Shown: positions 7,152 to 34,713, counted from the first letter of the stretch. The stretch is 58,487 nt of DNA from an uncultured Bacillota bacterium (GCA_902796855.1 CADBQN010000050.1:1-58487), one strand, 5' to 3'. Numbers and translations are program-made. The notes: generated from the letters alone by a model not told the origin.

Positions 7152-8729
7152 TCAGGAAGCGGGCTTGATTTCCGTCGTCAGCCAGTAATAGTCGGCGGTG
7201 TGAATGTTGGCGTCGGTGATGCTGGTGTCGGAAATGAAGGAGCTGTTGTAGTAACCGTGAACGAGAACGGCGCCGTCATCGAGGAGGATCTGCTGCATCT
7301 GCTGAATCAGCTCGGCCCGTTTGGCGTTGTCGAATTCCGAAGCCAAAGCGTCGTAGCAGGCGTCGAACTCGGCATTTTTATAGTGGCACCAGTTGGCGTT
7401 GGCGTCGGTGCCTTCATAGCCGCTGTACCAGTTGGCCAGATATTCGGTGGGGTCGCCGTTGCCGACGGTGGTCCAGTTGGAGTCGCAGAGATCGTATTCG
7501 CCGTTGACCATCATGTTCCATTCGGTGTCGGAGTCGGTGGAGTTGACTTTCACTTCGATGCCGATTTCGCCGAGGGTGGACTGGATCGCTTCGGCAAAGT
7601 CGGAAAGGCAGCGGTTGGGATAGGTGATATAGTTCAGGGAGATGTTTTCACCGTTGATTTCGCGGATGCCGTCGCCGTCGCTGTCGACATAACCGGCGTC
7701 GTCCAGCATTTTAACGGCGGCGTCGGTATCGAAGGGATCGGGATCGGTGAGGTTGTCATAGCCGTAGTCCAGCGCGGAGGGAAGGACGGAATAACCGGCG
7801 GTGTAGAGGCCGCCGACGGTGGTTTCGCAGAGCGTGTCGTCGTCGATGGCTTTGAGGATGGCGTGACGAAGGGTTTCGTCGCTGAGGACGCCGTCCTGGT
7901 TGATGTAGGCAAAGCCGCAGCGGACGCCCTGGGCGATGGAGACGTTATAGTTATCGTCGTCGGCGAACATTTTCAGGTCCGCGGCGGAGGTGATGTTTTC
8001 AACGAGGTTGACGTCGCCGGCCTGGAGCGCCAAAGTTTTGGCGTCGTCGTCGCCTAAGTAGTAGACTTCCACGTTCTTAAAGGGCACTTCGCCGTTCCAA
8101 TAGTTTTCGTTGGCGGTCAGCGTGGCGGAAACTTTCGGTTCGTAGCTGGTGAGAACGTAGGGGCCGGTGCCGATGGGGTTGGTGTCGAAATCATAGTCGC
8201 CGGTGGTGTCGAGGACCATGAAAACGGGGTAAGCGAGATTCTTGCAGAGGTCGGGCTGAGCGGCGTTCAGCTCAATGGTGAGGGTTCTGGCTTCGTTGTC
8301 GGCGGTCATCGTCTTGTAGTCGATGAATTTCCGCGGCGTGGAAGTACCTTCCTCGTTGCCGAAGATATCCTCAAAGCAATCGATGACGCTCTGCGGCGTC
8401 ACGTCGTTGCCGTTGGAGAATTTCACACCGTCACGGATATGGAAGACCCAGGTGATATGGTCTTCGGTGGAATATTCGTCGCAGAGGTTCGGCTGGACGG
8501 TCATGGTATCGTCAAAGTTAAAGAGGCATTCGCCGATGCCGATGCGCATATTGTCCCAGGCGGCGTTGATCTGGTCGCCGGGATCCAGCGTGTCGGCGTA
8601 GCCGAAGCAGCCGAATTTCAGGGTGTCGCCGTCGGCGGCGGAAGAAGCGCCGCCGTCTTTGCTGCCGCAGCCGGATACCATGGCCAAAACGAGCAGCGTT
8701 CCGAAAAGCATTGTCAAGAACTTTTTCAT
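7152..8729 (-). CDS. ABC transporter substrate-binding lipoprotein, peptide/nickel family (SBP_bac_5)
   Basis: 525-aa extracellular lipoprotein of ABC importer cluster C (oligopeptides, dipeptides, nickel-chelates). The signal peptide MKKFLTMLFGTLLVLAMVSGCGSK has a lipobox VSGC with acylated Cys about residue 20. Family features follow: a LDPGDQINAAWDNMR start of the mature domain, WVFHIRDGVKFSNG, NPIGTGPYVLTSYEP and NENYWNG. The ATG at 8729 has AAGGAG 9 nt upstream. It is the last gene of a five-gene importer operon, 257 bp after the second ATPase, with a hairpin in the gap. Whether the substrate is peptides, nickel complexes or another ligand cannot be decided from motifs. Confidence 0.9.
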   Translation of the reverse strand: MKKFLTMLFGTLLVLAMVSGCGSKDGGASSAADGDTLKFGCFGYADTLDPGDQINAAWDNMRIGIGECLFNFDDTMTVQPNLCDEYSTEDHITWVFHIRDGVKFSNGNDVTPQSVIDCFEDIFGNEEGTSTPRKFIDYKTMTADNEARTLTIELNAAQPDLCKNLAYPVFMVLDTTGDYDFDTNPIGTGPYVLTSYEPKVSATLTANENYWNGEVPFKNVEVYYLGDDDAKTLALQAGDVNLVENITSAADLKMFADDDNYNVSIAQGVRCGFAYINQDGVLSDETLRHAILKAIDDDTLCETTVGGLYTAGYSVLPSALDYGYDNLTDPDPFDTDAAVKMLDDAGYVDSDGDGIREINGENISLNYITYPNRCLSDFAEAIQSTLGEIGIEVKVNSTDSDTEWNMMVNGEYDLCDSNWTTVGNGDPTEYLANWYSGYEGTDANANWCHYKNAEFDACYDALASEFDNAKRAELIQQMQQILLDDGAVLVHGYYNSSFISDTSITDANIHTADYYWLTTEIKPAS

Positions 8730-8814
8730 CTTTCGATTCTCCTTAATCTCATTCATTTTTCCGTTCTCCGCGGAGAGCGGAACGCGTTATGGATGAGACC
8801 CCTTTGTTTCCGTC

Positions 8815-8850
8815 TTCGGCGGCCTCCCAAAAGGAGGGCCCTCCGCCGAA
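8815..8850 (-). other. Intercistronic stem-loop in the importer operon
   Basis: TTCGGCGG pairs with CCGCCGAA, with an inner CCTCC/GGAGG stem. There is no T-run on either side, so it is not a normal terminator. Lying between the ATPase gene and the binding-protein gene, it could protect or process the mRNA to raise binding-protein expression, as known in peptide-permease operons. A further GC-rich palindrome is at 8759-8782. Confidence 0.45.
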
Positions 8851-8986
8851 AGGACGGTTCGCCGCCGCGGATCCCCAGCGCCGGGACTGCCCGCGGACAG
8901 CGGCGGATATCTGAATCTTCTTTTTTCTCTCAACCTCCTCCCGCGTGTTGTTCCATCGGTGTGCGTCTATCAATCAATTTTGTTTA

Positions 8987-9940
8987 TCAGTATAAATGGC
9001 AGGCGACGCTGTGCCCTTCTTCCATCCGCTTCAACGCGGGGTTTTCCTGTTTGCAGATGTCCCTGCACCGGTCGCAGCGGTTCTGGAAGGGACAGCCCAC
9101 CGGCACGTCCAGAGGACTGGGAGCCTCGCTTTCGATGCTCTCGATCTTTTTGGAAAAATCCATGTTCAGGTCAAAGATCGCACCCAGCAGCGCTTTGGTG
9201 TAGGGATGGAGCGCGCCGTCGTGAATCTTTTCCGAAGGCAGGACTTCCACGATGTTGCCCAGATACATCACCGCCGTGCGGTGGGAGAGCTGGCTCACGA
9301 GAGCCATATCGTGGCAGATAAAGCCCATGGCGATGTTCTTCTTTTTCTGGAGCCCCACCAAAAGTTCCACGACGTTTTTCTGCACCGACACGTCCAGAGC
9401 GCTGGTGGCTTCGTCGCACATAATGACTTCCGGCTCCAGAGCGATGGCCCGGGCGATGCCGACGCGCTGGCGCTGGCCGCCGCTCATGTTGTGGGGATAA
9501 CGCGAGGCGAAATCCCCGGGCAGATTCACCATTTCCAAAAGCTCCCTTGCTTTGGCCTCTTTTTCCGAGGGTTTGATGACGTTCAGGTTCAGCAGCGGTT
9601 CGCAGACGATGTCCCGGATCCTCATTTTGGGGTTAAAGGCCAGCGTCGGGTCTTGGAACACCATCTGGATGTGGCGGCGGTGCTGACGCAGTTTCTCGCC
9701 TTTGAGCTCGGCGATGTTCTTCCCCTTAAAGAGGATCTCGCCTTCGCTGGGATGGTCCAGAGAGAGGATCATCCGCATCAGCGTGCTCTTGCCGCAGCCG
9801 CTTTCGCCGACGATCCCCAGCGTCTCACCGGGGAAGAACTCCAAATTGATCTTATTGTTGGCCAGAAGCGTCCGCCCGTCGGAGGCGGGGAACCTTCTGG
9901 TGACGTTTTTTACCTGTAAAACCGGTACTCTATCAGACAT
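8987..9940 (-). CDS. ABC transporter ATP-binding protein (OppF/DppF type)
   Basis: 317-aa nucleotide-binding subunit that powers the importer from the cytoplasmic side. Walker A is GESGCGKST, the signature is MSGGQRQR, Walker B is VIMCDEATSALD, and the switch His is in FICHDMALVSQ. The C-terminal oligopeptide-transporter extension has the Cys cluster CPFQNRCDRCRDIC, found in OppF/DppF-like subunits. The ATG at 9940 has GAGGG nearby and overlaps the end of the preceding ATPase gene by 8 nt, which implies translational coupling. Confidence 0.92.
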   Translation of the reverse strand: MSDRVPVLQVKNVTRRFPASDGRTLLANNKINLEFFPGETLGIVGESGCGKSTLMRMILSLDHPSEGEILFKGKNIAELKGEKLRQHRRHIQMVFQDPTLAFNPKMRIRDIVCEPLLNLNVIKPSEKEAKARELLEMVNLPGDFASRYPHNMSGGQRQRVGIARAIALEPEVIMCDEATSALDVSVQKNVVELLVGLQKKKNIAMGFICHDMALVSQLSHRTAVMYLGNIVEVLPSEKIHDGALHPYTKALLGAIFDLNMDFSKKIESIESEAPSPLDVPVGCPFQNRCDRCRDICKQENPALKRMEEGHSVACHLY

Positions 9941-10724
9941 AGCGCAGTCCCTCCAACGTTGGCACGGAGCGCATCAGCTCCCGGGTATACTCGTCGTCGG
10001 CGTGATGGAGGATGTGGTCCCGATCCCCTCTGTCCACGACTTTGCCGTTCTGCATCACGACGATCTCGTCGCCCATGTAGGCCGCGACGCCGATGTTATG
10101 GGTCACAATGATGATGGCGGTGCCGAACTCGTCCCTCAGCTCCATCATCTGGCGGACGATCTGCGCCTGAGTGGTCACGTCCAAAGCGCTGGTGGGCTCG
10201 TCGGCCAAAAGCAGCTTTGGCTCAAAGGTCATGGCCATGGCGATGCCGACGCGCTGGCGCATGCCGCCGGAGAGCTGAAAGGGATAGCTCTTCATCACGT
10301 TGTCGGCGCTGGGCAGGCGCATCCGCTCCAGCATGGCGCAGCCCATGTCCCAGGCTTCCTTTTTGGAGACCTTTTTGTGATTGCGGATGTAGTCCACGTA
10401 AAGACTGCCGATTTTGCGGATGGGATTGATCATGGCGCCGGAATCCTGGAAAATCATGGAAATGTGGCTTCCGCGGAGATCCAGCCATTGTTTTTTGGAA
10501 TAGCCGAGGAGCGACTTGCCCTCAAAGAGGATGTCCCCCTCGGTGACGCGGCCGCCGCCGGGGAGCAGGCCGAGGACGGCCCGGATCACGGTGGTCTTGC
10601 CGCTGCCGCTTTCCCCGACGATGCTGACGATTTCCCCCTCTTTCATTTTGAGGGAGAAATTCTCGATGGTGGGCTTGGGGGCGTTTCCGTATTTGACCGA
10701 AATGTTTTCAATATCTAACAGCAT
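9933..10724 (-). CDS. ABC transporter ATP-binding protein (OppD/DppD/NikD type)
   Basis: 263-aa ATPase partner of the downstream subunit. Walker A is GESGSGKTT, the signature is LSGGMRQR, Walker B is LLLADEPTSALD, and the switch is IIVTHNIGVAA. At 263 aa it is shorter than typical OppD/DppD (about 320-330 aa) and lacks the C-terminal Cys-bearing extension, as in NikD-like subunits; this weakly favours a nickel- or metallophore-type importer. The ATG at 10724 follows GAGGGGGG. It lies 15 bp after the permease gene. Confidence 0.9.
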   Translation of the reverse strand: MLLDIENISVKYGNAPKPTIENFSLKMKEGEIVSIVGESGSGKTTVIRAVLGLLPGGGRVTEGDILFEGKSLLGYSKKQWLDLRGSHISMIFQDSGAMINPIRKIGSLYVDYIRNHKKVSKKEAWDMGCAMLERMRLPSADNVMKSYPFQLSGGMRQRVGIAMAMTFEPKLLLADEPTSALDVTTQAQIVRQMMELRDEFGTAIIIVTHNIGVAAYMGDEIVVMQNGKVVDRGDRDHILHHADDEYTRELMRSVPTLEGLRYV

Positions 10725-10739
10725 ATTATCCCCCCTCGC

Positions 10740-11567
10740 TTACTCGTCGCGGACGTCCATGACGTCCCTGAGGCTGTCGCCCAGCAGATTGAAAATAACG
10801 ACGGTGACAAAGATCGCGAGACCGGGGAAGATCATCATCCAGGGGGCGTTCTGCATGAACACGCGGCCCTCGTTGAGCATCAGGCCCCATTCCGGCGTCG
10901 GCGCCTGGGCGCCGAAACCGAGGAACGACAGCCCCGCCAGCTCCAGCATCATGCCGCCGATATCCGTGGCGGCGGTGATGACCATCGTCGGCAGGATATT
11001 GGGGATCATGTACTTCCGCAGGATATACGACACCTTTGAGCCGGTGACCACCGCCGCGGAGACGTAATCGACATGGCGTATCTTCAGCACCAGGCTCCGG
11101 GACATACGGGCGTATTTCGTCCAGGAGACGATGGCGATGGCGATGATGGCGTTGCGGATGCTGGCGCCGAGGATCCCGGCGACGGCGATGGCCAGCACCA
11201 TGCCGGGGAAGGAGATCATCATATCGGAAAGGCGCATGATGACGGTATCGACGGCCTTGCCAAAGTAACCGGCGATGACACCGAGGAGGCTGCCGCCGAC
11301 GAAGATGATGGCCACCACCGTCAGGGAAGCCGCCAGCGATACCCGGCTGCCGTAGATGATGCGGGTGAACAGATCGCGGCCCAGCTTATCCGTGCCGAAC
11401 CAGTGCTCCGCGCTGGGCGCCTGCAGCGCCCCGCCGAGATTCGCCTGGTAGGGATCGTATTTCGTGAGGACCGGCGCGAGGATCGCCACGGCGATGAGCC
11501 CCAGCGCCAGAATGGCGAAAAGCGTAAACTGCTTGTTTTTGCGGATAAATTCTTTTATTTTGCCCAT
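10740..11567 (-). CDS. ABC transporter permease (OppC/DppC type)
   Basis: 275-aa inner-membrane permease. It has an N-terminal helix (FTLFAILALGLIAVAILAPVLT), the family-typical HWFGTDKLGRDLFTRIIYGSRVSL segment, about six membrane helices and an EAA-like loop (AAVVTGSKVSYILRKYMIPNILP) that docks on the ATPases. The ATG at 11567 has AGAGGTGAC upstream. It begins 4 bp after the stop of the partner permease. Confidence 0.92.
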   Translation of the reverse strand: MGKIKEFIRKNKQFTLFAILALGLIAVAILAPVLTKYDPYQANLGGALQAPSAEHWFGTDKLGRDLFTRIIYGSRVSLAASLTVVAIIFVGGSLLGVIAGYFGKAVDTVIMRLSDMMISFPGMVLAIAVAGILGASIRNAIIAIAIVSWTKYARMSRSLVLKIRHVDYVSAAVVTGSKVSYILRKYMIPNILPTMVITAATDIGGMMLELAGLSFLGFGAQAPTPEWGLMLNEGRVFMQNAPWMMIFPGLAIFVTVVIFNLLGDSLRDVMDVRDE

Positions 11568-11571
11568 GCCG

Positions 11572-12510
11572 TCACCTCTTTACCCGGATCCGGGGATCGA
11601 CCCAATAGTAGGAGATATCTACAATCAGGTTGACCACCATGTAGATCAGCGCCACCCACAGAACGTAGCCCTGAATCAGATTGTAGTCATAAGAGGTAAT
11701 GGCCGACACGGCCAGGTTGCCGAGGCCCTGATAGCTGAAGATCACTTCCACCACGGCGGTGCCGCCCAGCAGGGAGCCGAGGGACAGACCGAACATGGTG
11801 ATCAGCGGCAGCAGCGAATTGGGAAAGACCTGCTTCCAGAGGATCTCCCGCTCCGAGGCGCCTCGGGCCCGGGCGCCGGTCACATAGTCCTGGTGCATCT
11901 CTTCCAGCACCGCCGTGCGCACCTGGCGCGTGTATTTGGACGACATGGCGAAGGCCAGCGTCACCGCGGGGAGAATGATCTTTTTCAGGCCGATCCCGGT
12001 GGACACCACCGGCAGCCAGCCCAGCACGATGCAGATAAAATACATCAGCAACAGACCGACCCAGAAGTTGGGCATCGATATGCCGAAAAAGGTGAAGCCC
12101 CTGACGATGTAGTCGATGGGCTTGTTGCGGTAGACCGCCGAGAGCATCCCCAGCGGCACCGATACGATAAGCATCAGCACCATGGCGCAGAGCGCCAGCT
12201 TCAGCGTGGGCCACAGCCGCGCCAGAAGCAGCTCCGCCACGGGCTTGCCGGTGGAATAGGATTTTCCGAAATCCCCGTGGAGGCAGTTGGTGAGCCAGTG
12301 ACCGTACTGAACCAAAATGGGATCGTTCAGTCCCAGCTCTTCCCGGGCAGCCTGGAGCACCTCTTCCGAGGGCATGGTGCCCGAGGCGGCGTACATCGTC
12401 CGCACCGGATCACCGGGGGCGAGATACGTCAGCATAAACGTAAAGAAACTGATGCCGATGAGAACGATCAGGATCTGAACGATACGCTTTCCCAATTGTT
12501 TCCCTGTCAT
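11572..12510 (-). CDS. ABC transporter permease (OppB/DppB type)
   Basis: 312-aa permease, first gene of the importer operon. It starts with GKRIVQILIVLIGISFFTFMLTYLAPGDPV, typical of DppB/NikB, and has six predicted membrane helices and the EAA loop GARARGASEREILWKQVFPNS. The ATG at 12510 has AAGGAAGAAGG upstream. Gene order is permease-permease-ATPase-ATPase-binding protein, all on the minus strand. The 156-bp upstream region shows no clear consensus promoter or terminator. Confidence 0.92.
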   Translation of the reverse strand: MTGKQLGKRIVQILIVLIGISFFTFMLTYLAPGDPVRTMYAASGTMPSEEVLQAAREELGLNDPILVQYGHWLTNCLHGDFGKSYSTGKPVAELLLARLWPTLKLALCAMVLMLIVSVPLGMLSAVYRNKPIDYIVRGFTFFGISMPNFWVGLLLMYFICIVLGWLPVVSTGIGLKKIILPAVTLAFAMSSKYTRQVRTAVLEEMHQDYVTGARARGASEREILWKQVFPNSLLPLITMFGLSLGSLLGGTAVVEVIFSYQGLGNLAVSAITSYDYNLIQGYVLWVALIYMVVNLIVDISYYWVDPRIRVKR

Positions 12511-12666
12511 GATTTTTTCCTTCTTCCTTAGAGTGTGCTTTTATTTCATCCACAGTCCCCGGTTTGTGCGCGCGGGACAGAGCGGGAGAAACCAAAAGAA
12601 GAATGTATTCGCTTTTTTTATCTGTGTGAGACGGAAAAGTCTCTTGCGCCGCGCCGGGCGGGCTTT

Positions 12667-14052
12667 TCAGCTCTCCCGGACCGCCTCAAGGTCCGCCTTC
12701 GCCCGTTCTTTGCGGCGGCGGCGGAAGATGACGCAGAAAATGACGGCAAAAGCGACGGCCACCGGCGCCCAGGACTCCGGATAGACCCTGGCGATATCCT
12801 CAAGGGTGTGCGTGTGCTGAGCGAGGAGCGTCAAAAGGAGGATCCGCCAGCCGCAGAGGCAGGTGACGACGACCACCATGGACGTGAGCGCGTACCCCAG
12901 ACCGCGGACGGCGCCGCCGAGGGTTTCCCCCAGAGCGGAGAGCCAATAGAAGGGCAGCGTGACCAGGCCGATGCTGATGGCGGCGGCAACGACATCGTCG
13001 CTGCGGATGAACCAGCCGAAAACGGTCTTGGGGAAGATCACAATGAGGCCGGCAATGACCGCCGTGACCGCGGCGGAAAAAAGAACGGCAAAGACCGTCC
13101 CCCGCCACAGCCGCGGATAATTCCCGGCACCGTCATTCTGGGCGACGAAGGTCGTCACCGTCTGACTGATGGCCATAATGGGCAGATAGACAAAGTTTTC
13201 CAGTTTGTAGTAGGTGGCGAAGGCCGCCACGGCGGTGCCGCCAAAACCGTTGATGTGGTACTGGACCATGACGTTGGAAACGGTGATCAGCACCGTCTGG
13301 ATCCCGGCGGGGAGCCCGACCCGAAGGATGGAAGCCAATGTTTCCCGGTCGATGGCCCAGGTCACAAAGACCTTCATCGGGAAGGGATCGCTGCGCATCA
13401 GACCGGCGACGGTCAGCGCCGCCGAGAACATCTGGGAAAAGACCGTGGAAAAAGCGACGCCGTTGATGCCCAGGGGCACGACGATGAGGAAAAAGGCGTC
13501 GAGAGCGACGTTGAGAAAGCCGCAGATGACCAAAATCCAAAAGGGGGTGGAGGAGTTGCCCCTGGCCCGGAAAAACCCGGACCCCATGTTGTAAATGATC
13601 ATAAAGGGCAGGCTCAGGAAAAAGATCCGCGTATAGCGCGTGGCGTCGACGAGAACGTCCGCCGGCGTGTTCAGCAGCGTATAAATCTGCGGCGTGAAGA
13701 TCACCGCCAAAATCATCATCAGAACGCCGAAGATGAAGGCAAAGGACATCGAGGTGTTCAGCACCTTTTTGACTTTGGCCTCGTTCTTTTCGCCGACATA
13801 GCGGGCGGCGACGACGTTGGTGCCGACGGAAATGCCCATAAACATCCCGATGGCGCAGTAGGTGACGGTGCCGGCGACGCCGACGGCGGCGGCGGCGTGC
13901 TTATCGAGGAGGTTGCCGACGAAGAGAAAGTCCGCGGTGTTGTAGAGCTGCTGAAAGATGCTGCCGCCGATGAGGGGGAGCATAAAAAGGAGCATGCGGG
14001 GGATCATCGGCCCCGAGGATAAATCAATATTGCGCGCTTTCATCAACTTCAT
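12667..14052 (-). CDS. MATE family transporter
   Basis: 461-aa membrane protein with about 12 hydrophobic helices in two related halves, as in multidrug and toxic-compound extrusion transporters. It has the NorM/DinF-like opening (GPMIPRMLLFMLPLIGGSIFQQLYNTADFLFVGN) and SGFFRARGNSSTPFW in the first half. The C-terminus is basic (RRRRKERAKAD). Start is ATG 14052 after AAGAAGCGG; ATG 14043 is an alternative. The gene lies alone behind a 250-nt leader with cobalamin-riboswitch features, so its expression is probably repressed by cobalamin. That makes a link to corrinoids or a related solute more likely than a simple drug-efflux role; this is inference. Confidence 0.9.
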   Translation of the reverse strand: MKLMKARNIDLSSGPMIPRMLLFMLPLIGGSIFQQLYNTADFLFVGNLLDKHAAAAVGVAGTVTYCAIGMFMGISVGTNVVAARYVGEKNEAKVKKVLNTSMSFAFIFGVLMMILAVIFTPQIYTLLNTPADVLVDATRYTRIFFLSLPFMIIYNMGSGFFRARGNSSTPFWILVICGFLNVALDAFFLIVVPLGINGVAFSTVFSQMFSAALTVAGLMRSDPFPMKVFVTWAIDRETLASILRVGLPAGIQTVLITVSNVMVQYHINGFGGTAVAAFATYYKLENFVYLPIMAISQTVTTFVAQNDGAGNYPRLWRGTVFAVLFSAAVTAVIAGLIVIFPKTVFGWFIRSDDVVAAAISIGLVTLPFYWLSALGETLGGAVRGLGYALTSMVVVVTCLCGWRILLLTLLAQHTHTLEDIARVYPESWAPVAVAFAVIFCVIFRRRRKERAKADLEAVRES

Positions 14053-14108
14053 TGGTTCCGCTTCTTTCTGTTCCGTTTTCCGGTCTCCGCTTCCGCGCCG
14101 CGGCGAAT

Positions 14109-14149
14109 AAAAAAAGATACCCGACAGTGTTCGACTGCAAGGTATCTTT
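14109..14149 (-). terminator. Rho-independent terminator of the riboswitch leader
   Basis: AAAGATACC (14113-14121) pairs with GGTATCTTT (14141-14149), with an inner CAGT/ACTG pairing. On the minus strand it ends in a run of eight or more T. It lies between the riboswitch-like aptamer and the MATE ribosome site, as expected of an expression platform. Confidence 0.8.
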
Positions 14150-14199
14150 CAAGATGGCTTTTCATCAATGCACACTGCGCTGGAATTGTGCAAAATCGC

Positions 14200-14340
14200 T
14201 CCCGTCCATGTATCTGACTTGACCTTTATAAAAAAGGCCGCACAGTGACCGGCTCGTGGGTTCTTACCCCTTTCCATGCGCGCTTCCCCTGAAACAAAGA
14301 GAAAACGCCGGAGAGCGAGTTTTTATGAAATTGGTTGATC
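14200..14340 (-). promoter_or_regulatory. Candidate cobalamin riboswitch aptamer
   Basis: Minus-strand leader RNA upstream of the MATE gene. Elements in the order expected of the cobalamin riboswitch: AGGGGAAG (about 14290-14283), GGGGTAAGAACCC, GAGCCGGTCACTGTG (about 14255-14241, compare the usual GCCACTGTG), and AAGTCAGATAC (14220-14210, compare the B12-box end). A consensus promoter lies just upstream and a terminator just downstream. The B12-box elements are recognised by eye and one is variant; a covariance-model search would settle the class. Confidence 0.68.
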
Positions 14341-14365
14341 AGCCCGTTTTCCGTAGGCTATCCCT

Positions 14366-14394
14366 ACTATACTGAATCCGATATCGTTTGTCAA
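14366..14394 (-). promoter_or_regulatory. Strong promoter of the MATE riboswitch leader
   Basis: On the minus strand TTGACA (14394-14389), a 17-bp spacer and TATAGT (14371-14366). Transcription would start near 14359, giving a leader of about 300 nt to the MATE start. Confidence 0.75.
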
Positions 14395-14487
14395 GGCCTT
14401 TTTTTAACCTTTTCCGCCAAAAAGGCATGAATTTCACATTTTTGCCGCAAAATCGACGCGGAAAGCGGTCGTCCCGCCGATGAAAAT

Positions 14488-14509
14488 ACCCCCGGCTTTT
14501 GCCGGGGGT
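14488..14509 (-). terminator. Terminator of hppA
   Basis: CCCCCGGC and GCCGGGGG form an 8-bp GC stem around TTTT. On the minus strand it is followed by TATTTTC, 19 bp after the hppA stop. Confidence 0.75.
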
Positions 14510-14527
14510 ACAAAAGATCGTTTCTTT

Positions 14528-16609
<2,082 letters not shown>

Positions 16610-16657
16610 TGTTTCAACCCCTCCTATGGTGAATAAATAAATTATATTTAAACAGAT

Positions 16658-16882
16658 TTAATAAATGATCGCAATGAGGAGCGTCAGCAAAAAGAAGACC
16701 GCGGCCAGCACCGTAGAGATTTTTGCCAACAGCTGGTCCAGTCCTTTCTTTTTCCCGAAAAACTGTTCCGAAGCGCCGCCGATGACACCGGAAACGCCCG
16801 CGCTCTTGCTGGACTGCATTAAAATAACGGCGATGAGGCCGAGGCAGACCAGAACGTCGACGATCGTTAAGAAAATATACAT
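16658..16882 (-). CDS. secG: Preprotein translocase subunit SecG
   Basis: 74-aa protein with two membrane helices (residues 2-22 and 52-73) linked by the conserved SecG loop QSSKSAGVSGVIGGASEQFFGKKKGLDQLLAK. It assists SecYE in protein export. The ATG at 16882 follows GGAGG. It has a good own promoter and follows eno after a terminator, the usual neighbourhood of secG in Firmicutes. Confidence 0.93.
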   Translation of the reverse strand: MYIFLTIVDVLVCLGLIAVILMQSSKSAGVSGVIGGASEQFFGKKKGLDQLLAKISTVLAAVFFLLTLLIAIIY

Positions 16883-16912
16883 AGCATACCTCCATAAATA
16901 TGTAACAGTGGT

Positions 16913-16941
16913 ATTCTACCATATCCGCTACTCAAATACAA
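16913..16941 (-). promoter_or_regulatory. secG promoter
   Basis: On the minus strand TTGTAT (16941-16936), 17 bp, and TAGAAT (16918-16913) with a TGG extension before the -10. Confidence 0.65.
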
Positions 16942-17044
16942 CCAAAAAGCAAAAATAAACGCAAAATAATCAACAAAGACGAAAAAAAACCGGCCTACTT
17001 CCGGGAAACGCCGCCAAAAGGCAACGGTTCTCACACAGAAAGCG

Positions 17045-22309: not shown

Positions 22310-23320
22310 TCAGATCCCTTTCGAGGCCACATAGGCGGCGAGATCGGCGACACGGTTGGAGTAGCCCCATTCGTTATCGTACCAGGCGACGATTTTCGCC
22401 ATGTTGTCGCCGATGACCATGGTCGAGAGACCGTCGACGACGGAGGAGATGGCGCAGTGGTTGTAGTCGATAGAAACGAGAGGCAGTTCGGAATAGCCGA
22501 GGATGCCTTTCATATCGCCTTCGGCGGCTTTTTTGATGGCCGCGTTGATTTCTTCGGCGGTGGCGGGTTTCGCCAGCTCAACGGTGAGGTCCACGACAGA
22601 AACGTTGGGCGTGGGCACGCGCATGGCGAAACCGTTGAGTTTCCCTTTCAGCTGGGGCAGGACGAGAGCGACGGCTTTGGCCGCCCCGGTGGTGGTGGGG
22701 ATGATGGAGGAAGAAGCCGTTCTGGCTCTTCTCATATCTTTGTGCGCCTGGTCGAGAATGCGCTGGTCGTTGGTGAAAGCGTGAACCGTGGTCATCAGCC
22801 CTTTGACGATGCCGAATTCGGCGTCGACCACTTTGGCGAAGGGCGCCAGGCAGTTGGTGGTGCAGGACGCGTTGGAAATGATGTGATGGTTCGCGGGGTC
22901 GTAGGTTTCCTCGTTCACGCCCATGACGATGGTGGCGTCCTCATTTTTGCCGGGAGCGGTGATGATGACTTTTTTCGCGCCGGCGTCGATGTGGGCCTGC
23001 GCTTTGCTCTTTTCCTTAAACACGCCGCTGGCCTCGATAACGATGTCGACGCCCAATTCTTTCCAGGGCAGGTTTTGCGGGTCTCTTTCGGCATAGACCT
23101 TGACTTCTTTGCCGCCGACGATCATCGTGTCGTCGCCGGATACGGAAATTTCCTTGTCCCAGGTCCCGTGAACGGAATCGAACTTCAGCAAGTGAGCGTT
23201 GGTCGCGGCGTCGCACAGGTCGTTGACGGCAACGATGTCGAGAACGTCGCTGTCATACATGGCCCGATAAACCAATCTGCCGATTCTGCCAAAACCATTG
23301 ATTGCTACTTTTGTTGCCAC
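22310..23320 (-). CDS. gapA: Glyceraldehyde-3-phosphate dehydrogenase
   Basis: 336-aa NAD-dependent glycolytic enzyme. The Rossmann start is [16 protein letters not shown], the catalytic Cys153 is in [12 protein letters not shown], and substrate loops [20 protein letters not shown] and [12 protein letters not shown] are complete. The start is taken as GTG 23320 (MATKVAING) because GAGGTG lies 7 nt upstream; another GTG at 23335 overlaps that site. It heads the glycolytic operon, with an extended -10 promoter and a leader of about 110 nt that contains a stable hairpin. No cggR-type repressor gene is next to it. Confidence 0.96.
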
Positions 23321-23338
23321 TGAACTGCACCTCACAAC

Positions 23339-23374
23339 CTTGGCGGAGCCGCCTTTCCGGCGGGGGCCGCCAAG
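23339..23374 (-). promoter_or_regulatory. Stable hairpin in the gapA 5' leader
   Basis: CTTGGCGG pairs with CCGCCAAG, with an inner GCCGCC/GGCGGg stem. It ends a few bases before the GAGGTG ribosome site, so it could affect mRNA stability or translation start. No T-run follows. Confidence 0.45.
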
Positions 23375-23436
23375 CCTTTCCTAAGATTTTTTATTTGATG
23401 ATGCCGCGGCGAAGGGAGTTCCTCCGCCACACCATC

Positions 23437-23445
23437 ATTATAGCA
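23437..23445 (-). promoter_or_regulatory. Extended -10 promoter of the glycolytic operon
   Basis: On the minus strand TGCTATAAT, with TTAGAA as a weak -35 about 18 bp upstream. It lies in the 171-bp gap between the YesN-type regulator and gapA. Confidence 0.55.
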
Positions 23446-23491
23446 GAAAAAAGCCGTTTTTTCTAACAAAAATGTTTACTTTTTTTCCGAC

Positions 23492-25129
23492 TTACTCCCT
23501 GGTGGACAAAATACGAGAAGCCTCGTCCCGGCGATAGCTGCCCGGGGTCTTGCCGGCGTGTTTTTTAAAGACCTGGGAGAAGTAGCGGGCGTCGCGGAAG
23601 CCGACGCGCATGGCAATCTCCGCCACGGAATAGGACGTCGTCGTCAGCAGCTTCCGGGCCTCCTCCATGCGCACATGGGTGAGATACTCGGTGAAGCTCC
23701 AGCCCTTGACCTGCTTGAACAGGCGGCTGAAATAGCAGGTGCTGAGATAGACCTGTTTCGCCACGTCCTCGAGGCCGATTTCCTTTTGGAAATTATCTTC
23801 CATATAGCGGACGGCCTTGTCGATGAGGTTGACGTTGCGGAACTCCCTGGAGGTGCGGATCTTCGTCACCAGCTCGTTGAGCCAGTTGATGACCTTTTCC
23901 TTCATCACGTCGGGGTTCGTTTCCTCCGCCAGCTGCTGTTCCAGCTCGACGCGGCTGTCTTCCATGGACTCAAAGGCGATATTGCTCTCAACGGCGGCGC
24001 GGACGACGACGGTGCAGATCTCGGAGATCTTTAACCGCACCCGCACCAGCTGGGTATCTTCGCTGATGTATTCCGTCCACAGCGACAGGAAGGAGCGCAC
24101 CGTGCGGTCCCAGTCGCCCATGCAGACAGCCATCACGAGGTTCTTTTCGTAGCCCTGCCGCAGGACATTGGCGTATTCGCTGGTGGCCTCGACGTCATCG
24201 GCGTGGATCGGCTGATCGCCGCCGTAGAGGACGCGGTATTCCCCGGCCACCGAGGCTTCCCGATAGGAGCGGGCGATGCCCGAGGGGCCGTGGCCCACCC
24301 GGCCGATGCCCACCGTCACCGTGGAAGAGGTGTGTTCGCGGACGTATTCACAGATATGGTTGGCCAGATTCGTCACCATCTCTTTCAGGGCGCCGTCGTC
24401 AAAGGCTTCCTCGGCGGCGAGGAGCACGGTATACTGACCGTTGCCGACGGAGACGAAGAAATGTTCCGGCCATTCGACGAGGCTGTTTTCGATGGCGTCG
24501 GAGACCTGGCGCTGAAGGATCTGTTTTTCCAGCTCGGAGCGGAAATTGTTCTGCGTCGTGAGATTATCGAGCCAGATGTTCATCGCCAGACAGAGGGGGT
24601 TTTTCAGACCGAAAAAGGCGGTCCTGTTCCGCATTTCCGACTCGTCGGTGAGATTGCCGTTGATCAGGTCCATGACGAAGCCGATGCGGATAAAGGGCAG
24701 GGAATCGTTGAGCGTCGCCTTGGTGCGGTCCAGCTCCTGCCGCTTTTCCTTTTCCGCCTCAATCTCGTCGGAGAGGCGCTGGGCCAGATCGAGGATCTCG
24801 CCGCTCTCCACCGGTTTCAGCAGATATTCGGCGAGGCCCAGCCCGACGGACTGCTGCGCGTAATGGAAATCGCTGTACGCGGAGACGATGACAATCCTGG
24901 CGTCGGGCAGAATGACCCGAAGCTGCCGGGCGACTTCGATGCCGTCGATGCCCGGCATACGGATATCGAGGAACACGATGTCGGGACGGGTCTCGATCCC
25001 GAGATTGACGGCGTCCTCGCCGTTATCCGCCTCGGCGACGATTTTGAATTTCCGGGGGAATTCCTCCAGCACCGTGCGCAGATACTGACGCTGTAACGGT
25101 TCATCGTCGGCAACCATGATTTTGATCAT
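23492..25129 (-). CDS. YesN-type response regulator with AraC DNA-binding domain
   Basis: 545-aa cytoplasmic response regulator. The receiver domain (residues 1-120) has acidic pocket D8-D9, phospho-acceptor D55 in VFLDIRMPG and the switch Lys in YLLKPVE. A long middle region (about 140-430) resembles the divergent GGDEF-like module common in YesN proteins (VTVGIGRVG, SYREASVAGEYR). The C-terminal AraC domain (about 440-540) carries both helix-turn-helices (IGLEDVAKQVYLSTCYFSRLFKQ and SVAEIAMRVGFRDARYFSQVFKKHAGKTPGSYR). It lies 86 bp downstream of the corrinoid-sensor kinase and is its likely partner. Its target genes are unknown; AraC-type regulators often act on neighbouring genes. Confidence 0.93.
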   Translation of the reverse strand: MIKIMVADDEPLQRQYLRTVLEEFPRKFKIVAEADNGEDAVNLGIETRPDIVFLDIRMPGIDGIEVARQLRVILPDARIVIVSAYSDFHYAQQSVGLGLAEYLLKPVESGEILDLAQRLSDEIEAEKEKRQELDRTKATLNDSLPFIRIGFVMDLINGNLTDESEMRNRTAFFGLKNPLCLAMNIWLDNLTTQNNFRSELEKQILQRQVSDAIENSLVEWPEHFFVSVGNGQYTVLLAAEEAFDDGALKEMVTNLANHICEYVREHTSSTVTVGIGRVGHGPSGIARSYREASVAGEYRVLYGGDQPIHADDVEATSEYANVLRQGYEKNLVMAVCMGDWDRTVRSFLSLWTEYISEDTQLVRVRLKISEICTVVVRAAVESNIAFESMEDSRVELEQQLAEETNPDVMKEKVINWLNELVTKIRTSREFRNVNLIDKAVRYMEDNFQKEIGLEDVAKQVYLSTCYFSRLFKQVKGWSFTEYLTHVRMEEARKLLTTTSYSVAEIAMRVGFRDARYFSQVFKKHAGKTPGSYRRDEASRILSTRE

Positions 25130-25215
25130 ACTAAACTACCTTGTCCTTTCCGATATTGTCCGCCGAAACAAACAATCAAATACGCCCCGGAGGGCTGTTT
25201 CCGCCAAAAACTTTT

Positions 25216-27042
25216 TTATCTCTTCAGGGGGAACGACAGCTGAAGCGTCGTCCCTTTATTTAAAGCGCTGTTGATATCCCAGGCGCAGTCGCTGCCGAAA
25301 AAGAACTGCAGACGGCTTAAAACATTGTTCATGCCGATGCCGCCGACGTTGCCCTCTTTGGTGGAGTGAATATCTTCCAGCTTAAAAATGCTCTTTTGCT
25401 GTTCCTCGCTCATGCCGACGCCGTTGTCGGAGACTTCCAAAAAGACGTTGCCGTTCTCCAGCCAGCCCTGGATCGAAATGATGCCGCCGCGCTTTGTCGG
25501 TTCCAGACCGTGCTGGCAGGCGTTTTCCACCAGTGGCTGCAGGATCATGCAGGGCATTTTCGCCATCTCGATGGAAGGCTCGATGTCGATGCGGTGGCTG
25601 AGGCGCCCCTGAAAGCGGGTCTCCTGGATCATCAGATAGTCGGTGACGGATTTGACTTCTTCTTCCAGCGTCACCGCGGATTTCACCTGATAGAGACTGT
25701 AGCGCATCAGCCGCGCCAGGGCCGAGACGAGTTTTTCCGTCAGTTTGTCCCCCTCAATCAGCGCCACCCGGGCGATGGTGTTCAGGGAATTGAACATAAA
25801 GTGCGGGTTCACCTGATACTGCAGAGCGGAAAGCTCCGCTTCTTTCAGGTCCTCTTCCAGCTTCCGCTGTTTTTTCATGAACTCCATATAGGTCTTCTGC
25901 TGCCCTTCCAGCTGGCGGCGGGCGGCGACGTTGTCGATGAGCTCAACGATCTTGCGGCCGGTGACGCCGAGGAAGCGGCAGAGAGCGCCGCAGCGCTCCT
26001 CGCTGATGACCGGGATATCGGCGGGTATCTGGGCAGGGTCGCCGACATCCCCCTCGAGGAGGAAGTGGCCGCAGAGCAGCGTGCCCAGGGAGCCGTTTTC
26101 GCCGTTCAGGGCGTAGCTCATTTCCATCAGGCCGCAGCGGCAGCGGTAGGCCACGGCGTCGTTGAAATCGATGTTGGCCAGAGACTCGTGGCTCGGCCTG
26201 TCGCCGAAGAGGGCGGTATATTCCGAGCACTTCCCCGAACAGGAGGAAAAGCACTCGCCGCCAACGTAGGCCGCGCCGTCCTCGTCGAGAACGATCAGGT
26301 CAACACCGGCAATCTGTTTAAAGGAGGTCTGGAGGGTCTCCAGCTGATCGATGCCGAAGGTGACGGGAAAGAGCCGTCCCGAGGAAAGCTCCTGATCGCG
26401 GCGGACAATGGTCTCGATGAGCTGAGCGCCGCTGCTGGCGTCGGGGGCGTAGCCGTCGGCGCCGAGGGCCGAGGCGATCTCCTCTTTCAGCGCCGCGCCG
26501 CCGACGACGATGCTGAAGCGATGACCGCTCTGTTTGACGCCCTCAAGGACGTTGATGGTATCGCCGACGGCTTTGACCGTCGTTGTCAGCAGCGCCGAAA
26601 GGCAGAGGACATCCGGCTGATAGCGGGTGACCGCCTCCACAAAGGTGGTGGGGGAAACGTCGACGCCGAGGTCAATCACTTCAAAGCCGCGGGCCTCGAG
26701 CACGAGGCCGAGGAGGTTTTTGCCGATATCGTGGAGGTCCCCGGCGACGGTGCCGATGACAACACGGCCCTTCTGCGGGACGTCCAGACCGCTTTCCAGA
26801 AGGAAGGGGCGGATGACGCTGATGCCCTCATGGACGCCGCGGGCGGAGATAAGGAGCTCCGTCACGTAGATCTCGTTGCGCTCGAAGCGGTCGCCGATGA
26901 CGCGCATCGCTTTGAGAAGACCGTTGTTCAGGATATCGGTGATATCGATTTTCATATCCAGCGCCGTCTGGACCTGCTGACGGACGCTTTCGAGATCGCC
27001 GCTGATGACGGCCTGAGAGATATGGTCAAAGATATTTTTCAT
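25216..27042 (-). CDS. Corrinoid-binding, PocR-domain LytS-type sensor histidine kinase
   Basis: 608-aa kinase with no membrane segment. Residues 1-88 match the helical cap of methyltransferase corrinoid proteins (LLKAMRVIGDRFERNEIYVTELL). Residues 92-215 form a B12-binding Rossmann domain with D102-x-H104-x2-G107, S149-A-L151 and G181-G182, the residues that hold cobalamin with His as lower ligand. Residues 225-370 match a PocR-type sensory domain with Cys264, 268, 272, 301 and 303 (YRCRCGLMEMSYAL). A coiled linker leads to the HisK_7TM/LytS-type kinase core: H414 in VNPHFMFNSLN, N-box ENACQHG at 506-512 and DNGVG at 539-543. It sits upstream of a YesN-type regulator. It probably senses a corrinoid, its methylation or redox state, or a one-carbon substrate; the exact signal is inferred. 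Confidence 0.9.
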   Translation of the reverse strand: MKNIFDHISQAVISGDLESVRQQVQTALDMKIDITDILNNGLLKAMRVIGDRFERNEIYVTELLISARGVHEGISVIRPFLLESGLDVPQKGRVVIGTVAGDLHDIGKNLLGLVLEARGFEVIDLGVDVSPTTFVEAVTRYQPDVLCLSALLTTTVKAVGDTINVLEGVKQSGHRFSIVVGGAALKEEIASALGADGYAPDASSGAQLIETIVRRDQELSSGRLFPVTFGIDQLETLQTSFKQIAGVDLIVLDEDGAAYVGGECFSSCSGKCSEYTALFGDRPSHESLANIDFNDAVAYRCRCGLMEMSYALNGENGSLGTLLCGHFLLEGDVGDPAQIPADIPVISEERCGALCRFLGVTGRKIVELIDNVAARRQLEGQQKTYMEFMKKQRKLEEDLKEAELSALQYQVNPHFMFNSLNTIARVALIEGDKLTEKLVSALARLMRYSLYQVKSAVTLEEEVKSVTDYLMIQETRFQGRLSHRIDIEPSIEMAKMPCMILQPLVENACQHGLEPTKRGGIISIQGWLENGNVFLEVSDNGVGMSEEQQKSIFKLEDIHSTKEGNVGGIGMNNVLSRLQFFFGSDCAWDINSALNKGTTLQLSFPLKR

Positions 27043-33675: not shown

Positions 33676-34713
33676 ATGAACCGCAAAAAACTGCCCGGCG
33701 GCCTGCTCACCACCGCCATGGGCATCATGCCCCACGAAGACCTTGACGAGGCGCTGGAGATCTCCCTCTCCCTCGACGTCGCCTACTGGCCTCAGCTGCC
33801 CCGGATGACCTACTACGAAGATATGTACGTCCAGTCCAGCGAAAAGCATCCCGGCATCATCGTGGACACCGAAAACCAGCGCATCACCTTATCCACCGAC
33901 CGCTTCTACGAGGAGATCCCCGCCTATTTTGAGGGACTTGACGACCCCCATTTCTACGAGCTCTCGCCCCAATATTCCGTGGCCTTCGACACCTTCCTTC
34001 AAAAAGACCTTTCCGGCTACAAATGCATCCGCGGCCAGAGCGTCGGCCCCATCAGCTTTGGCCTGAAGATCGTCGACGAAAACAAAAAACCCATCGCCTA
34101 CAACGATGAGATCCGCGGCTTCATGTTCGATTTCATGGCGGAGAAGTGCAACGCCCAGTACCGCCAGATGGCGGCGAAGAACGAGAACGCCCTCGTCTGG
34201 ATGGACGAACCGGGGCTGCAGATGCTCTTTACCTCCTTCACCGGCTACACGGCGGACCGCGCCGCCGAGGACTACGGCGCGTACCTGGAAAAGATGGAAG
34301 GGCCCAGAGGCATCCACCTCTGCGGCAACCCCGATTGGTCGTTCCTTTTGAGCAGTCTCGACCTGGACATCCTCTCCATGGACAGCTACACCGTGGGTCA
34401 CGTCTTTTCCCTCTACAAAGGGGAGATCATCGATTTTCTGAAGAAGGGCGGCGTCATCGCCTGGGGCATCACGCCGACGCTGACGGAAGAGCTCAGCGCG
34501 GAATCGCTGAAATCCCTGGCGGACCGGCTGGAAGAAACGTTCCGCACCGTTTCCGCCGGCGGCATCGACATGGACGAACTTTTGGACCGCGCCTGGCTGG
34601 CGCCGTCCCGCTGCTGCCTCGTGAACCCCGACCGCACGAAATCGGTGAACGAAAGCTTCCGTATCCTGAAAGAACTGGCGGTGTATTTAAAAGAAAAGTA
34701 TAAGCTCTGTTAA
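33676..34713 (+). CDS. UroD/MetE-fold methyltransferase-like protein (MtaA-like)
   Basis: 345-aa protein of the uroporphyrinogen decarboxylase / cobalamin-independent methionine synthase barrel superfamily, which includes MtaA-type corrinoid:coenzyme methyltransferases. Probable zinc ligands are His and Cys in GIHLCGNPDW and Cys in SRCCLVNPDR; an acidic residue follows in VWMDEPGLQ. It is not a heme-pathway decarboxylase by sequence. ATG 33676 follows AAAGGAG. It lies 72 bp after hcp and is probably cotranscribed. Its substrate is unknown; a role in methyl transfer on corrinoids would fit the corrinoid-sensor kinase 6 kb away. A decayed copy of its last 31 codons is at 35419-35511. Confidence 0.8.
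   Translation: MNRKKLPGGLLTTAMGIMPHEDLDEALEISLSLDVAYWPQLPRMTYYEDMYVQSSEKHPGIIVDTENQRITLSTDRFYEEIPAYFEGLDDPHFYELSPQYSVAFDTFLQKDLSGYKCIRGQSVGPISFGLKIVDENKKPIAYNDEIRGFMFDFMAEKCNAQYRQMAAKNENALVWMDEPGLQMLFTSFTGYTADRAAEDYGAYLEKMEGPRGIHLCGNPDWSFLLSSLDLDILSMDSYTVGHVFSLYKGEIIDFLKKGGVIAWGITPTLTEELSAESLKSLADRLEETFRTVSAGGIDMDELLDRAWLAPSRCCLVNPDRTKSVNESFRILKELAVYLKEKYKLC

Follow-up and report, generated by a model that had tools for sequence, protein, structure and literature searches.

Corrinoid-PocR histidine kinase, YesN-type regulator and direct-repeat element: a candidate control system for the acs operon in an uncultured Bacillota bacterium

The DNA considered here, which we call the window, is a stretch of 58,487 nucleotides from an uncultured Bacillota bacterium (GCA_902796855.1 CADBQN010000050.1:1-58487). 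On its minus strand stand two adjacent genes, one for a histidine kinase with a corrinoid module and a PocR domain, the other for a response regulator of the YesN type. Both open reading frames are called at 25216-27042 and 23492-25129, just where the original prediction, made from the sequence alone, had placed them. The features of the pair are as follows.

25216..27042, minus strand: corrinoid module-PocR-histidine kinase gene, 608 amino acids, cytosolic (open reading frame call, Pfam, 25 full-length homologues)
26812..27027, minus strand: B12-binding_2 helical cap, kinase residues 6-77, without the CarH-type W-x9-EH (Pfam, 8e-18)
26437..26769, minus strand: B12-binding domain, kinase residues 92-202 (Pfam, 1e-22; AlphaFold2 and Foldseek)
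26722..26739, minus strand: cobalt lower-ligand motif D102-x-H104-x2-G107, extended DLHDIGKN (D.H..GKN invariant in 25 kinases)
26041..26355, minus strand: PocR domain, kinase residues 230-334, with Cys268, Cys272 and Cys301 (Pfam, 7e-11)
25600..25839, minus strand: His_kinase domain of the LytS/YesM type, residues 402-481, phospho-acceptor His414 in QVNPHF (Pfam, 2e-24)
25222..25548, minus strand: HATPase_c domain, kinase residues 499-607, N-box N507, G541/G543 (Pfam, 1e-9)
23492..25129, minus strand: YesN-type response regulator with receiver D55, GGDEF_2 and AraC helix-turn-helix, 545 amino acids (open reading frame call, Pfam)

All five kinase domains (B12-binding_2, B12-binding, PocR, His_kinase and HATPase_c) exceed the curated Pfam cut-offs, as had been anticipated, and so do Response_reg, GGDEF_2 and HTH_18 in the regulator. 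The PocR match (PF10114) scores 42.6 bits against a cut-off of 23.9 and covers profile positions 4-109 of 162. With His_kinase (PF06580), HATPase_c, an acceptor histidine and the N and G boxes, the catalytic half is that of a LytS/YesM-type kinase, and the nearest solved kinase to its His_kinase core is GanS (6swj/6swk), by PDB sequence search and by Foldseek. The adjacent gene supplies a receiver aspartate and an AraC helix-turn-helix, so that the proposed pairing with an AraC-type (YesN) regulator holds, and the regulator gene adjoins the kinase gene in the complete neighbourhoods examined. No membrane helix is apparent from the domain layout of the kinase, for which no dedicated predictor was run.

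Full-length kinases were found in the window's family (f1), its sister family (f2), the Moorella-like family f20, and families f39, f34 and f53. Among 25 of them, whose identity to the window protein ranges from 31 to 74%, G-D-x-H-D-x-G-K-N never varies, and neither do S149, L151 and G181/G182 of the corrinoid module or His414, N507, G541 and G543 of the kinase core; every module residue that the original prediction had singled out is thus present and fixed. Conservation is lowest in the PocR region, whose CSxxC and YRC/YxC cysteines nevertheless recur in most of the main clade, where the recognition helices of the regulator (CYFSRLFKQ...RDARYF) are also conserved. In a tree of 135 B12 modules the kinases fall into two groups, the second of which (f34) is placed, on the modest support of a quick tree (SH-aLRT 83-84), beside stand-alone corrinoid proteins encoded next to PocR regulators. 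This second, diverged clade of corrinoid-PocR kinases, seen at loci L141, L143, L147, L151, L139 and L019, lacks the operator described below, and may represent an independent fusion with its own target.

What sort of corrinoid module does the kinase carry? It is of the methyltransferase type (MtgC/MttC/MtmC), not of the CarH type. B12-binding_2 is joined to B12-binding with DxHxxG, SxL and GG, the arrangement of methyltransferase-type corrinoid proteins. The top NCBIfam match is the glycine-betaine corrinoid protein MtgC at 189 bits; CarH reaches 36 bits against a cut-off of 400, and none of the 25 kinases has the Trp-x9-Glu-His of CarH. The carrier scores are themselves below their cut-offs (189 against 370 bits for MtgC_2, 148 against 215 for pyl_corrinoid), so that the module resembles the carriers and is not filed as one. 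Its best sequence relatives in the PDB are 1y80 of Moorella (257 bits), MttC (190), 4jgi and MtmC (157). An AlphaFold model was built from an alignment of the window protein with loci from a contig scan; that scan, made with a nine-kinase alignment, mostly gave ordinary corrinoid proteins and served only for the tree and as fold input. For the whole kinase the model is confident only over residues 1-222 and part of the ATPase domain, with predicted local distance difference test (pLDDT) values of about 83-97 for residues 1-80. Foldseek places MttC first for the N-terminal part, finds also MtmC, MetH, MtaC, 4jgi and 1y80, with CarH far lower, and superposes 1y80 with a root-mean-square deviation of 1.4 A over 125 residues. 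The PocR region and linker are modelled at low confidence (pLDDT about 40-55 in the PocR region), and we therefore make no claim about the PocR fold; a PDB sequence search with residues 217-409, PocR plus linker, returned nothing useful. From its DxHxxG motif the module is predicted to bind a cobamide in the base-off/His-on form.

The genes around the kinase point to one-carbon (C1) metabolism. Most f20 genomes have the genes arranged as corrinoid protein, pterin-binding methyltetrahydrofolate methyltransferase, kinase, regulator, RACo activator and URO-D methyltransferase, and the f39 and f34 kinases likewise stand among corrinoid-protein and URO-D genes. One f20 corrinoid protein (L228, G055) is identical to the Moorella structure 1y80 at every residue of the stretch compared. 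The same locus holds, at 14243-15565, a gene for a PocR-AraC regulator that runs divergently from the acs cluster; a TAG codon in frame breaks it, which may mean a pseudogene or readthrough. The window's own genome, a 2.1-Mb draft, holds at least eight further corrinoid proteins, methyltransferase gene clusters and an acs cluster. Together with the domain matches, the structure comparison and the ligand motif of the 25 kinases, the methyltransferase operons of the relatives support the earlier proposal that a module of the methyl-carrier type has been recruited for signalling.

The partnership of PocR with corrinoid proteins extends beyond the kinase. Among 101 related genomes there are 72 PocR proteins without a B12 module, and at least 17 of these have a corrinoid protein within 4 kb, where 0.8 would be expected; in most cases its gene is the immediate neighbour and has the same orientation. 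Since PocR and corrinoid proteins are neighbours elsewhere, the kinase looks like a fusion of those modules. The window's own genome offers an instance on contig C12 (L155), minus strand, where a PocR-AraC one-component regulator (9128-10438) is followed by an orphan corrinoid protein (8455-9288), with no methyltransferase gene nearby. This pair is apparently a split form of the same sensory device. In the B12-module tree the corrinoid proteins beside PocR regulators (L170, L177, L180, L181, L185 and L155) and L056 form one clade (SH-aLRT 93), perhaps a dedicated family of signalling corrinoid proteins. PocR is a widespread sensory domain that is poorly understood, and the association hints, in a form that can be tested, at what its ligand may be.

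What genes might the pair control? Comparison of upstream regions gave a 36-bp element, newly described here, with the consensus GCAAKAAADNNAACMTWTNGCAAKAAWTTNRYCTTG, a direct repeat with a 19-bp period. At three mismatches or fewer it occurs at 17 sites in 12 of 19 selected genomes, and the reversed-pattern control gave none. The element lies upstream of the operon that runs from corrinoid protein to kinase in f20 and f39, and upstream of the kinase in f2. A second f2 site precedes cooC-acsA-acsB-acsC-RACo, the operon for carbon monoxide dehydrogenase (CODH)/acetyl-CoA synthase, in three genomes (G004, G008 and G010), with a weaker match in the same place in G006. Within the window's class the element precedes this operon at all seven loci examined, the window's own genome included. 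There the site (C16:39837-39872) stands 110 bp upstream of cooC and is the best matrix match of the acs region, at 20.2 bits with the next at -0.5, a score that none of 1000 shuffled sequences matched. The form of the element proper to f1 is found once each in the window's genome, G002 and G003, always upstream of cooC. Single further matches lie upstream of the ATP synthase operon in G010 (L221, 10867; three mismatches) and upstream of lepB-ylqF-rnhB in G004 (L218, 3488; one mismatch).

The element also keeps company with the kinase. Nine of 398 phylum genomes have it, and all nine have a main-clade kinase, which is present in 14 genomes; acsB is present in 112 of the 398, as against 20 of 21 genomes with the kinase. 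The recognition-helix sequence is common to the regulators of the element-bearing clade; regulators of f34 and of PocR-only loci, which lack the element, differ. A -10-like hexamer (at least four of six matches to TATAAT) follows 20 bp after the element at 19 of 24 sites, most copies lying 20-21 bp downstream, and the three f1 sites have a perfect TATAAT. The proximal half-site thus overlaps the -35 position, which is the geometry of AraC-type class II activators. A reading of the element as a sigma-54 promoter was dropped, as the GG-to-GC spacing, judged by hand, misfits -24/-12.

It is reasonably probable, we think, that the pair is a soluble two-component system in which the corrinoid module and PocR report the C1 state to the kinase, and in which the regulator activates either the acs operon or a corrinoid-methyltransferase operon. 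In the mechanism that we propose, the cobamide on the kinase module would be methylated, or oxidised and reduced, by C1 enzymes; for its loading and reactivation it would depend on the same methyltransferases and RACo proteins as the true corrinoid carriers. The signal would most likely be the methyl charge or redox state of the kinase's own bound cobamide, with PocR relaying or co-sensing. The LytS-type core would then phosphorylate D55 of the regulator, which would bind the 36-bp direct repeat overlapping the -35 region and activate transcription. Predicted targets are acs in f1 and f2, the pair itself in f2, and the methyltransferase operon in f20 and f39, which in Moorella-like genomes includes the kinase gene; in the window's genome and family the acs prediction concerns the cooC-acsA-acsB-acsC-RACo operon. 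This target and its operator go beyond the original prediction. More tentatively, we suggest that a corrinoid methyl carrier has here been turned into a signalling subunit, so that the methyl-cobalt state would serve as a read-out of one-carbon flux and switch on CODH/acetyl-CoA synthase through an AraC-type regulator and a direct-repeat operator, stand-alone PocR regulators and orphan corrinoid proteins being the split form of the device.

Several points weigh against this proposal. In the window's family no element precedes the kinase itself, and none was found at acs in the Moorella-like or f39 genomes examined; with no kinase site in f1 and no acs site in the Moorella-like genomes, the regulon would have to differ between families. 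The f1 operator is diverged; scored with the general matrix the G003 copy is weak, 15 of 1000 shuffled sequences scoring at least as high, and of the three sites that the f1 pattern finds, two had gone into its making. The genomes in the co-occurrence counts are related, eight of the nine belonging to one family, so that the counts overstate independence, and one genome with the kinase (G171) has no element near the kinase gene. The domains, the ligand motif, the operon contexts and the sequence, position and co-occurrence of the element are observed directly, whereas cobamide binding, phosphotransfer, binding of this regulator to this operator, activation and the nature of the signal are inferred. 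The true signal could also be a ligand of PocR, the corrinoid module then having only a structural part.

Might the module sense the presence of the cofactor rather than its chemistry? It would then report whether a cobamide is available, or which one, and be the protein equivalent of a cobalamin riboswitch; kinase activity would be set by whether cobamide is bound, and corrinoid-dependent pathways would be made only with the cofactor present. Any suitable cobamide should fit the conserved base-off/His-on motif, and the predicted targets, the acs operon with its corrinoid protein and RACo and the corrinoid-methyltransferase operons, all need one. We nevertheless hold this unlikely: no cobamide-synthesis or transport genes are seen at the predicted sites, the same genomes hold many other corrinoid proteins, and RACo and methyltransferase genes in the same operon suggest cobalt chemistry beyond binding. 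One might also think that PocR is the true sensor, of a small C1 or alcohol-type substrate, and that the corrinoid module docks the kinase to methyltransferases or is vestigial. PocR kinases without a B12 module occur in many genomes, and simple hydrocarbon derivatives have been proposed as the signals for PocR (Anantharaman and Aravind 2005, as cited in PMC9768040). A vestigial module should be free to diverge, however, and the opposite is seen, the ligand motif being invariant in 25 kinases and PocR the most diverged part. Stand-alone PocR regulators, too, keep their corrinoid-protein neighbours, and we give this explanation as little weight as the one before.

For the window's lineage the place of the pair raises another issue. 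In the window, in G003 and in two f2 genomes it stands between whiA (or rpoN) and the gap operon, and the window stretch 22310-25129 has it next to gap where CggR usually stands. In four genomes of the window's family (G000-G003) no CggR-type Sugar-bind protein was found. Does the pair regulate gap-pgk-tpiA-gpm-eno, in CggR's place in many Firmicutes, and not acs? Between the regulator gene and gap, neither the window nor L022 shows an operator, and the synteny may be merely inherited; this reading seems to us quite improbable. A B12-based photoreceptor kinase, akin to CarH or the photocobilins, whose domains have the same fold, is hardly credible, given a module much closer to methyltransferase carriers than to CarH, the missing W-x9-EH and gene contexts of anaerobic C1 metabolism; light, which had been listed among the possible signals, is weakened accordingly.

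A few other loci deserve mention. A MATE gene in the window had been described as lying behind a cobalamin-type leader, which the searches do not bear out: Rfam gives no family at gathering score over the whole window, and within 11500-17000 even a threshold of E<=5 yields no cobalamin family, so that cobalamin riboswitch control of that locus is rejected. Nor is there sequence-level support for a UroD/MetE-fold methyltransferase within 10 kb; the gene in question (33676-34713, plus strand) encodes a 345-amino-acid protein bearing HLCGNPDW and SRCCLVNPD motifs, with no Pfam match even at E<=5, no NCBIfam match and no PDB sequence relative. At 30352-33603 genes for a CRP/FNR-type regulator, a ferredoxin-type protein and a hybrid cluster protein (Hcp) stand side by side, likely a nitrosative or redox stress unit. 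Elsewhere in the genome (C53; L159, 14104-18001) a Cas9-like open reading frame of at least 1299 amino acids lies near methylamine-type methyltransferase and corrinoid-protein genes.

How does the system compare with those already known? The regulation of Wood-Ljungdahl genes in acetogens and methylotrophic anaerobes is largely unknown (PMC6873888). If the proposal is true, the pair would be a cobamide-based metabolic sensor for that pathway, neither light-driven nor a riboswitch, and the quantity measured would be protein-bound methyl-cobamide, the pathway's own type of intermediate. The predicted step of control, acetyl-CoA synthesis from one-carbon units, is central to physiology and has few known regulators; sensor, regulator, operator sequence and target operon are all concrete and can be tested in cultured relatives. 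We found no description of a corrinoid-PocR kinase, an unusual sensory input for a two-component system, in the open-access literature, the 2005 PocR/MEDS paper lying outside the search, so that a prior mention there is possible. MtgC, MttC, MtmC, MtaC and Moorella 1y80 share the cap and Rossmann-like B12 module with DxHxxG, SxL and GG; they are stand-alone methyl carriers, whereas the present module is part of a fusion with PocR and a kinase. In CarH/LitR and the photocobilins B12 modules also serve signalling, but these are driven by light, carry CarH-type residues and act as one-component regulators or as photoenzymes; none is a kinase of this type. YesM/YesN, LytS and GanS-type systems have the same His_kinase core (GanS 40% in the Foldseek comparison) and an AraC-type response regulator, and sense extracellular sugars or membrane signals, unlike the soluble, corrinoid-bearing kinase. 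The TetR protein CAETHG_0459 of Clostridium autoethanogenum is an activator tied to acetogen autotrophy genes (PMC6873888), but it is an unrelated protein, without corrinoid, of another lineage and with another promoter motif. Closest among published systems is the pair MecA/MecD from the mec cassette for dichloromethane, a PocR histidine kinase and response regulator beside corrinoid-protein and methyltransferase genes, in which MecA is suggested to respond to substrate (PMC9768040). MecA, at 430 amino acids, is too short for the B12 module of the 608-amino-acid kinase, and the corrinoid protein of that cassette, MecB, stands apart from it; those PocR-only kinase loci that we examined are without the operator and have regulators with different recognition helices.

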